The notes beneath the pieces are model-generated. The model did no database searches, had not been told where the DNA came from, and worked only from the letters and a program-made list of their open reading frames with translations. A program made the translations under genes and the position numbers. A stretch of DNA of 56,060 bases from an uncultured Actinomycetes bacterium (GTDB lineage: Bacteria > Actinomycetota > Actinomycetes > Nanopelagicales > Nanopelagicaceae): assembly GCA_903834145.1 (NCBI GenBank), contig CAILHY010000013.1, forward strand, positions 1 through 56,060, read 5' to 3'. Positions 17,566-20,682 of the stretch are shown one piece after another (the stretch's first letter is position 1; every line of letters starts with the position of its first letter).

Positions 17566-18696
17566 TTACGAGGCGTAGCGCATCGGCATAAGTAGGTACT
17601 TATAGTTTTCTATAGCTGCGCCATCCTGTGTGGTTTTACCCATCAAGATCGCTGGTTTATTAGATCCAGTGAATGAAATTTGAACGAACTGCGTCCCGAT
17701 CGCTTGAAGTCCATCAATAAGGAATGTTGGGTTGAAAGCGATTGTTATTGGTTCCCCTGTTAGTAAAATTTCTATTGCTTCGGTTGCTTGAGCTTCTTCG
17801 CCGGCTCCAGCTTCCAGTTCTAATGCTGAACCAGAAAAAGATAAACGTAGAGGTACTGTCTTGTCTGTTACTAAAGCGACACGACGTACTGAATCTAGGA
17901 ATTGCGCTACTTCTACAACCACAGTTGTTGTTACTTCTTGAGGCAACAAGTGTTTAAAGGGAGGGAAGGTTCCATCGAGCATTCTGGATGTCATTGATTT
18001 ATTTTCTTCAGAAAACCCTGCAAGCCTGTCGTGTGAAGCAGTTGGTGCTAACGAGATAGAAACGTTTTTTGCACCTGTTAGTGATTTTGCCGCCTCCGCT
18101 AATGTGCGTGCTCGAAGTAGCGCTGTCGTCTCAACATTAGGTTGTGCCGCTTGCCATTGTAATTCTCTGACCGCTAAACGGTATCGGTCTGTTGCAGCTA
18201 AAGTGATGGTGTCGTGATTGATGTCGATATGTATACCTGTAAGGGTTGGTAGTGAATCATCGCGTCCAGCCGCTACAGCTACTTGTGCTACTGCGGTGGA
18301 AAAAATATCTGTTGCAATCACTCCTGTGGGTTCAGGTAATTCCGGTAAAGATGGGTAATCATTAAGTGACAAAGTGGGGAGTGTGAATTTCGCACTTCCT
18401 GCTGTGACTAGCACCCGTGTTCCATCGAGTTCCACTGTCACAGGTTTTGACGGGAGTGATCGCGATATTTCAGCTAGTAATTTTCCAGGTACTAAAACTT
18501 TCCCTGTGATTGATACATCAGCTGGGAAGTTAGCTTTGCTTGAAGTCTCTAGATCTGATCCCGAGAGGAGAACTTCGTTGTTTTGCACATCGATCACTAT
18601 TCCGAGTAAAGCCGTCATTATTGGGCGGGTTGAAAGGCTTCGTGAAACCCAATGGACTGCATCCGCTAACGCGTGTTGTTCGACGGTAAATTTCAC
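17566..18696 (-). CDS. dnaN: DNA polymerase III beta subunit (sliding clamp)
   Basis: Ring-shaped processivity clamp. The 376-residue protein begins MKFTVEQHALADAVHWVSRSL and has three repeated clamp domains, ending in the family-typical LMPMR followed by YAS. The GTG start is preceded by GAGAGGTG. The DnaA-trio-like origin element lies about 110 bases upstream, between dnaN and dnaA. Confidence 0.97.
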   Translation of the reverse strand: MKFTVEQHALADAVHWVSRSLSTRPIMTALLGIVIDVQNNEVLLSGSDLETSSKANFPADVSITGKVLVPGKLLAEISRSLPSKPVTVELDGTRVLVTAGSAKFTLPTLSLNDYPSLPELPEPTGVIATDIFSTAVAQVAVAAGRDDSLPTLTGIHIDINHDTITLAATDRYRLAVRELQWQAAQPNVETTALLRARTLAEAAKSLTGAKNVSISLAPTASHDRLAGFSEENKSMTSRMLDGTFPPFKHLLPQEVTTTVVVEVAQFLDSVRRVALVTDKTVPLRLSFSGSALELEAGAGEEAQATEAIEILLTGEPITIAFNPTFLIDGLQAIGTQFVQISFTGSNKPAILMGKTTQDGAAIENYKYLLMPMRYAS

Positions 18697-18785
18697 GCCG
18701 CACCTCTCGTAACCATAGATACTTGTGAGCCTGGCAAATGCAGGGCTCCTGTTTGAAAGTCTTTCACAAAGTTCTCCACCCTCAA

Positions 18786-19001
18786 CCTTTTAATAGATAT
18801 AAGTAGTAGTAGTAACCAGGCCGTTAAATGTGGGTAAAAACAGAAAGCCCTGGCCAGGGCCGAGTGTCTCGTTTTCATCGTGTGGATAACTTTGTAATAG
18901 TTGTGGATAAAGAAAGAAGAAGAACATTTGTTTTCAAAGATACATAAATGGTTTCTGTGGAGCCACCACTTTGTGCACCAATTCCCCCATAGTTATCCAC
19001 A
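18786..19001. other. replication origin oriC with DnaA boxes and DnaA-trio-like unwinding element
   Basis: The dnaA-dnaN spacer (18697-19049) has no gene. It holds perfect DnaA boxes at 18881-18889 and 18902-18910 (minus) and 18993-19001 (plus), and a one-mismatch box TGTGGGTAA at 18829-18837. Next to that box, reading on the minus strand, come the GC-rich ACGGCCTGG, then TACTACTACTAC (complement of 18804-18815) and an AT-rich stretch (18786-18803). This order, box to GC-rich to trinucleotides to AT-rich, is the basal unwinding system described in Bacillus subtilis, where DnaA-trios direct strand opening. Confidence 0.85.
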
Positions 19002-19049: not shown

Positions 19050-20456
19050 TTAATTATTCTTCGCTTGTTGTTTTATTCGGTTTGTTAACTCAGTGACCTG
19101 GTTATAAATGGATCGCCGTTCAGCCATTAATTGCCGAATTTTCCGGTCGGCGTGCATAACCGTGGTGTGGTCGCGCCCGCCAAACATTTGCCCGATTTTA
19201 GGAAGAGATAACTCAGTGAGTTCGCGACACAAATACATCGCAATCTGGCGGGCATTGACTAAAACCCGAGATCTCGAGGTGCCACAAAGGTCATCCATCG
19301 TCAAACTGAAATAAGCAGCCGTTTGAGCCATGATTGTTGCGCCAGTGATGTTTGGAGTTGCTTCATTTGGAATTAGATCCTTTAAAACAATCTCAGCAAG
19401 ATTTAAATCGACACCTTGCCGGTTCAAACTAGCAAAAGCAGTAACTCGAATAAGTGCACCTTCAAGCTCACGAATATTTGTGGAGATTTTACTCGCTATA
19501 TATTCCAAAACTTCATCGGAGGCATTGAGTTTATCTTGAGCGGCCTTTTTGCGAAGGATAGCAATACGAGTTTCTAGTTCCGGAGGTTGAATGTCTGTGA
19601 TTAAACCCCATTCAAAACGACTACGCAGACGGTCCTCCAAGGTTGTTAATTGTTTAGGAGGCCTATCACTAGAAATTACTATCTGTTTGTTTGCGTTATA
19701 TAAAGTGTTAAATGTATGAAAAAATTCTTCTTGGGTGCGCTCTTTGTTCTCTAAGAATTGAATATCATCAACCAAAAGAACATCTAAATCGCGATATCTA
19801 CGCTGAAAAGCAGAGGCTTTATCATCGCGGATAGAGTTAATAAAGTCATTTGTGAACTCTTCGCTTGAGACATATCGAACACGTACACCGCTATAAAGTT
19901 CTTTTGCGTAAGCTCCGATAGCGTGCAGTAAATGTGTTTTACCCAATCCTGATTCGCCGTAAATAAATAATGGGTTATACGCTTTAGCAGGCGCTTCAGC
20001 CACAGCCACCGCTGCTGCATGAGCAAATCTATTAGAGGCGCCAATAACAAAAGTTTCAAAAATGTAGCGAGGGTTAAGTTGTGAAACTTCTGAAGTTTTT
20101 ACTGCGGGTTGATCATCTCGACCGGTGCCATGTTTTGGTTGAATAATTTCAATTTCTACTTCGGGGGCGGGAGGGTTTGGTAGATCTAAACCTTCATCGA
20201 CAGTGACGGCGATATTAGTTTTCTCACCTAGTTCGCGAGAAAGAACTTCACCCACGACGGCGCGCAACCGTGTTTCAAGAACATCTTTTGCAAAAACATT
20301 GGGGGCTGCAACCAAAAAGTTAGTAGACCCGCCTGACTGGATAAGACCCAAAGGTTTTGTTAAGGCCAAAAAAGCCCTGTGTTGAGGGGCATCTACCGCC
20401 ACATCGGCAATAACCCGCGCCCAAAGGGCGGCTAAATCAGTCTCGACTACAGCCAT
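19050..20456 (-). CDS. dnaA: chromosomal replication initiator DnaA
   Basis: AAA+ initiator that binds DnaA boxes and opens the origin. The 468-residue protein has domain I (about 1-90), a linker, then the ATPase domain starting [16 protein letters not shown] with Walker A GESGLGKT (167-174), Walker [10 protein letters not shown], and a C-terminal DNA-binding domain with the signature [11 protein letters not shown]. The linker is short and lacks the long extension of Streptomyces DnaA. AAGGGGTC lies six bases before the ATG. DnaA-box-like sites immediately upstream suggest autoregulation. Confidence 0.98.
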
Positions 20457-20471
20457 ATTTGACCCCTTAAA

Positions 20472-20682
20472 CTATCCACAGGTTTTTCCACAGGCTGTGG
20501 TCTAAACCCTTACTTGAGCCTCTAACTACCGCCGGTCTATCGCCGGCCCTGTGGAGAGGTTTGAAAAATAGAGGGAAATGGCGAGAAAAGCAAGTAGTTA
20601 TCCACAAGTAAAGATCACACGAGATGACATTGAGCGTAGATGGCATTTTTTAGGAAAAGTGAGTTTGACCCAGTTATCCCCA
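20472..20682 (+). promoter_or_regulatory. second DnaA-box cluster, dnaA-rpmH spacer
   Basis: This 289-base spacer (20457-20745) has a perfect TTATCCACA at 20598-20606 and near matches CTATCCACA (20472-20480), TTTTCCACA (20484-20492) and TTATCCCCA (20674-20682). The first two lie directly upstream of the dnaA start; the last overlaps the proposed rpmH promoter. Together with the dnaA-dnaN boxes this gives a bipartite origin or autoregulatory region. Confidence 0.75.

Follow-up and report, generated by a model that had tools for sequence, protein, structure and literature searches.

Alternation of adenine and cytosine in the DnaA-trios of a probable basal unwinding system from freshwater actinobacteria and their relatives

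DnaA finds the place at which to open the chromosome from a sequence called the DnaA-trio, for which both the literature and searches for origins take a middle adenine as the defining feature. The current work makes it likely that the DnaA-trios of Actinomycetota follow an amino-base rule, 3'-N(A/C)T-5', and not the NAN rule: adenine and cytosine appear to have been exchanged many times with the DnaA pocket unchanged, and cytosine-centred trios appear to be regular in natural origins. The anatomy of the site, its conservation, the restriction to A or C and the invariance of the main DnaA residues were all observed here. The site lies in a stretch of 56,060 nucleotides (contig CAILHY010000013.1), referred to as the window, from an uncultured bacterium of the Nanopelagicaceae. 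The window's own element is, by its sequence, an ordinary, well-formed basal unwinding system (BUS); the new variant appears in its lineage. The alternation of A and C at the third trio of relatives, absent from the original prediction, is the most interesting part of the results.

The genome (1.75 Mb, 33 contigs, 98.6% complete) belongs to the freshwater actinobacteria of the acI / Planktophila kind, and the dnaN product of the window shares 77% identity with the Candidatus Planktophila lacus protein and 93-94% with those of two uncultured actinobacterial metagenome-assembled genomes (MAGs). The prediction of an oriC adjacent to dnaN was confirmed. The dnaA gene (19050-20456), an open reading frame that aligns lengthwise with Bacillus subtilis DnaA, and the dnaN gene (17566-18696), an open reading frame with a GTG start that encodes the sliding clamp, both lie on the minus strand, in an order shared by about 100 relatives. 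The gap of about 350 nt between them holds three perfect TTATCCACA boxes, two on the minus strand in the orientation of the BUS box (18881-18889 and 18902-18910) and one on the plus strand in the opposite orientation (18993-19001); the BUS box is the nearest to dnaN. A conserved 14-nt block with the consensus TGANCWGSNNTTTY (18843-18856, minus strand) precedes the BUS box at a constant distance of 5 nt. The block is not a DnaA box, overlaps a terminator-like hairpin (18861-18846) in this genome, and shows few changes at positions pre-17, -15, -13 and -9 to -7 across the family (for example in L002 and L112-L178). Further DnaA boxes without trios are found upstream of dnaA, TTTTCCACA at 20484-20492 and TTATCCACA at 20598-20606, possibly for autoregulation or as a second box cluster.

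A change of GC skew near 18.8 kb had also been anticipated. The cumulative skew of the window does turn at about 19-20 kb, but it peaks at oriC, where the usual sign is a dip, and a complete family genome (G035, L212-L231) has almost no skew between its replichores. Because skew is nearly lacking in chromosomes of the family, it was dropped as an independent locator despite the local turn, and oriC is identified by synteny and the box cluster.

The BUS DnaA box, TTACCCACA (18829-18837, minus strand), which is the box variant originally proposed, has 1 mismatch to TTATCCACA and is kept in 159 origins. The spacer that follows, TTTAACGGCCTGG (18816-18828, minus strand), is 13 nt long and GC-rich near the trios; its length is conserved (13-15 nt) and its sequence is not. 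Next comes the DnaA-trio array, 3'-AAT GAT GAT GAT GAA TAT-5' on the plus strand (18798-18815), read as TTA CTA CTA CTA CTT ATA on the box strand (minus). Trio 3 occupies 18807-18809 on the plus strand, and its middle base, 18808, is A in this genome and A or C across relatives. Four trios are clear, as had been predicted, and six are obtained by counting any middle-A motif, all of them A-centred; the register needed correction, since one T sits between the spacer and the TACTACTACTAC originally noted on the minus strand. The minus-strand sequence after the spacer, TTACTACTACTACTTATATCTATTAAAAGG, was found as an exact copy once in the genome by pattern search. The AT-rich tract TCTATTAAAAGG and onwards (18780-18797, minus strand), presumably the continuation of the unwinding region, is AT-rich in relatives too.

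Published BUS criteria comprise a box with at most 2 mismatches, a spacer of at most 16 nt (typically 10-13, mode 13) and at least three trios (PMC8287927). Here, a box with 1 mismatch, a 13-nt spacer and six consecutive NAN trios lie inside a dnaA-dnaN gap with a box cluster. The predicted order of box, GC-containing spacer, trios and AT-rich tract matches the published definition, including the 13-nt spacing (PMC8287927). A search of both strands of the window for a box with at most 2 mismatches, 12-15 nt and at least four trios returned only this site, with a chance expectation of 0.025 in Markov-1 random windows of the same dinucleotide make-up. A tandem second DnaA box as in B. subtilis is absent, the spacer sequence TTTAACGGC having 6 mismatches to the box; such a box is found in 57% of predicted BUS and is not obligatory, single-box BUS being an accepted form. 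No Rfam families were found near the site. The sequence thus supports assignment of 18837-18798 as a putative Bacillus-type BUS, a known widespread kind, whose broad distribution has been described (PMC6669920, PMC8287927).

Box, spacing and trios are maintained throughout the family. The pattern CCACAN{13,14}YTAYTACNAMTA is present in 158 of 296 family genomes, and the reversed-pattern control in 1. Loci anchored on dnaN or on the motif yielded 161 distinct origins that carry the element, and seven more loci were weak, off-contig or divergent; many of the sequences compared are from MAGs. Nanopelagicales-type dnaA-dnaN loci also occur in public MAG records whose titles, Bifidobacterium breve, Streptomyces griseus or Flavobacteriaceae, look wrong (L014, L016, L018, L023, L027, L035, L047, L051 and L058, DnaN 75-78% identical to that of the window). 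Loci L112-L168 were fetched by a pattern that fixed trios 1 and 2 and left the middle of trio 3 free, so the result for trio 3 is unbiased by it; the 94 loci retrieved through dnaN alone likewise show no variation in the middles of trios 1 and 2.

Conservation of the trios in close relatives was one of the points on which the original prediction had been staked, and it stood: trios 1, 2 and 4 hardly ever vary in their middle bases and the spacer turns over. When changes were counted by parsimony on a DnaA+DnaN tree of 159 tips, most spacer columns showed 30-60 changes each, with the exception of the last few bases before the trios, and trios 1 and 2 showed 0 at their middle and last positions. 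All 161 origins have T on the box strand in the middle of these two trios, and the spacer is 14 nt in 147, 13 nt in 12 and 15 nt in 2. At their first position, trios 1 and 2 underwent almost only C<->T changes, so that one purine replaces another on the trio strand. Trio 4 begins with C or A only on the box strand (position 18806 in the window), with 10 changes and none other, and therefore with G or T on the trio strand, versus A or G in trios 1 and 2. Origins of genus g2 (L101, L169-L175) combine a degenerate box with no more than three trios (TTA TTA/CTA CTA, then ACC), followed by the AT-rich tract.

The middle of trio 3 behaves in another way. Among the 161 origins, 95 have G at this position of the box strand, 64 have T, and A and C occur once each, so that on the strand captured by DnaA about 60% of family origins have C and about 40% have A, and many relatives have only two consecutive NAN trios ahead of a C-centred one. 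Of 19 changes on the tree, 17 are A<->C on the trio strand (G<->T on the box strand), and at least 13 such switches are left after collapsing branches with less than 95% support. Against a background share of 0.263 at most, the excess has a binomial P of 1.3e-8, a value that rests on the tree used and on neighbouring columns as the source of the background rate. Both forms occur within the window's genus, and close pairs such as L141/L135 (97% identical dnaN products) and L163/L148 (96%) differ at this base. The state of trio 3 has no significant association with box quality or with trios 1, 2 or 5; a GC-pair compensation within the array, by trio 4 C->A with trio 3 T->G, was considered and set aside as a tendency only (p ~0.2). 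This middle base, swapping freely between A and C and almost never to G or T, indicates what DnaA may read. Trios 1 and 2 may need adenine, because opening may nucleate there and a G-C pair would be costlier at that place.

The BUS might be real and trio 3 degenerate and dispensable, the C variants being drift. Trio 3 is indeed the sole trio with an often varying middle base, and in B. subtilis an altered trio 3 sequence was harmless (PMC10721633). Drift does not readily give 17 A<->C changes out of 19, however, nor does it leave the first C and third A of the same trio with only 2 and 1 changes. Moreover, the same restriction to A or C is seen again at trios 2-5 in 18 families, and drift at trio 3 is thus considered unlikely.

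That recurrence comes from a scan of 297 Actinomycetes genomes with a pattern of two tandem boxes, then CTA, plus one loose end letter, which found 74 origins in 36 genera and 18 families; seeing only tandem-box, first-CTA origins (74/297 genomes), the scan gives no class-wide rate. On a genus-weighted basis, about 90% or more of the middles of trios 2 to 5 are T or G on the box strand, hence A or C on the trio strand. For trios 2-4 with A as third base, the genus-weighted middles on the box strand are G 50.5, T 35.8, C 1.8 and A 1.5. C-centred trios are as common as A-centred trios in these origins, and G or T is rare. The NKA motif accounts for 80% of in-register triplets versus 3% and 0% in the other two registers, and a C-centred trio occurs at least once in 17 of the 18 families. 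Runs of three trios are found in 17 of 53 distinct strings under NAN and in 37 of 53 under 3'-N(A/C)T-5'. In many cases, similar triplets are seen in dnaN-only origins from other families of the class; outside it, one family has C-centred trios (G573, G632) and another (f55) has 3'-AAT-5' runs.

It is more doubtful still that the alternation reflects some other constraint on the duplex, such as the site of a second protein, a methylation site or GC-content pressure, instead of base capture by DnaA. A change of T to G on the box strand raises GC, and the weak tendency of trio 4 to lose C as trio 3 gains G (about 5 to 1 pairs, p ~0.2) also counts for this reading, yet T to C, which would have the same effect on GC, hardly ever occurs. 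No common palindrome or longer motif is present, and CGA, TGA and AGA all occur in the class. The strict period-3 register also argues against this explanation.

The DnaA proteins point in the same direction as base capture. With the B. subtilis DnaA seen in the BUS structure 8BTG as the reference, residues E199, N203, I206, I209, K238, E239, E244 and R280 of the window's DnaA are equivalent to E183, N187, I190, I193, K222, E223, E228 and R264, and D212 and Q218 stand for N196 and R202. Of the residues used to recognise a BUS (E183, N187, I190, I193, R202, K222, E228 and the arginine finger R264), all are present except R202, replaced by Q. Equivalents of Glu183, Asn187, Ile190, Ile193, Lys222, Glu223, Glu228 and Arg264 are invariant in 149-151 family proteins, that of Asn187 being found in 149/149 family members and 19/19 readable DnaAs from other families. 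Family DnaAs have Asp for Asn196 and Gln or Lys for Arg202, and the contacts to the first and third bases of the trio would therefore have to differ. The main capture residues are identical in A-type and C-type origins, which suggests that one pocket serves both bases; as the pocket is invariant, no capture residue covaries with the state of trio 3 among the family proteins.

Very probably, then, the site is the DNA-opening module of oriC, of BUS type, with an amino-group reading that admits A and C. The protein-DNA mechanism, the strand used, the opening direction and the pocket chemistry are carried over from B. subtilis work. DnaA domain IV would bind the box at 18837-18829, aided by the upstream box cluster, and DnaA-ATP protomers would add towards dnaN, each capturing one plus-strand trio by its first two bases in a two-base pocket. 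The strands would separate from about 18815 towards 18780; opening towards dnaN, also suggested originally, follows from the orientation of the box. The middle adenine of a B. subtilis trio is held through its amino group by Asn187; cytosine, which also carries an amino group, performs as adenine does in vitro, and in vivo it sustains growth and initiation better than G or T do (PMC10721633). The equivalent of Asn187 in the window, Asn203, would read the middle base of the trio by the amino group, and adenine and cytosine would therefore both be accepted. That the repeat is instead part of the dnaN promoter or leader, with the true opening site elsewhere, for example upstream of dnaA, is highly improbable: the repeat lies about 100-120 nt ahead of the dnaN start and boxes occur near 20484 and 20598, but no promoter-like match was found on the trio repeat, the distance to dnaN varies widely among relatives with the box-trio spacing fixed at 13-15, and the window holds no second box-trio site.

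If the amino-base rule is true, searches by NAN leave C-centred trios uncounted, and the published rule would need to become 3'-N(A/C)T-5', in Actinomycetota at least. The survey that took trios as NAN found none in 15% of origins, and its authors suspected deviant trios without the middle adenine (PMC8287927); the extended motif may account for some of these origins. The 2023 structure paper raised the possible use of other sequences, such as C-centred ones (PMC10721633), and a 2026 review keeps NAN as the definition. No report of natural C-centred trios was found in the open-access literature searched, which took in the trio papers since 2024. The natural exchange of A and C is what the amino-group model of B. 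subtilis Asn187 predicts; it is a natural counterpart of the C-for-central-A result and fits one structure and laboratory mutants. Sister pairs of natural origins that differ at this key position provide material for direct tests.

Among known systems, the B. subtilis oriC BUS (Richardson 2016/2019; Pelliciari 2021, 2023) is alike in the order of box, spacer, trios and AT-rich tract in the dnaA-dnaN gap, in the trio consensus 3'-GAT-5', in the 13-nt spacing and in the conserved base-capture residues of DnaA. It has two boxes, whereas one is recognisable at the window site, which further differs in its trios, in the replacement of R202 by Q and of N196 by D, and in the C-centred trio 3 of its family. 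The cytosine trio mutants of B. subtilis (Pelliciari 2023, PMC10721633) were made in the laboratory; the C variants of the family are natural and appear to have been exchanged with A many times. In Clostridioides difficile, oriC2 (PMC7561715) likewise has CTACTACTATTACTACTA on the reading strand after the DnaA boxes, between dnaA and dnaN, and the orientation of box and trios in the window agrees with it. That origin belongs to a Firmicute, has A-centred trios only and has its opening mapped experimentally.
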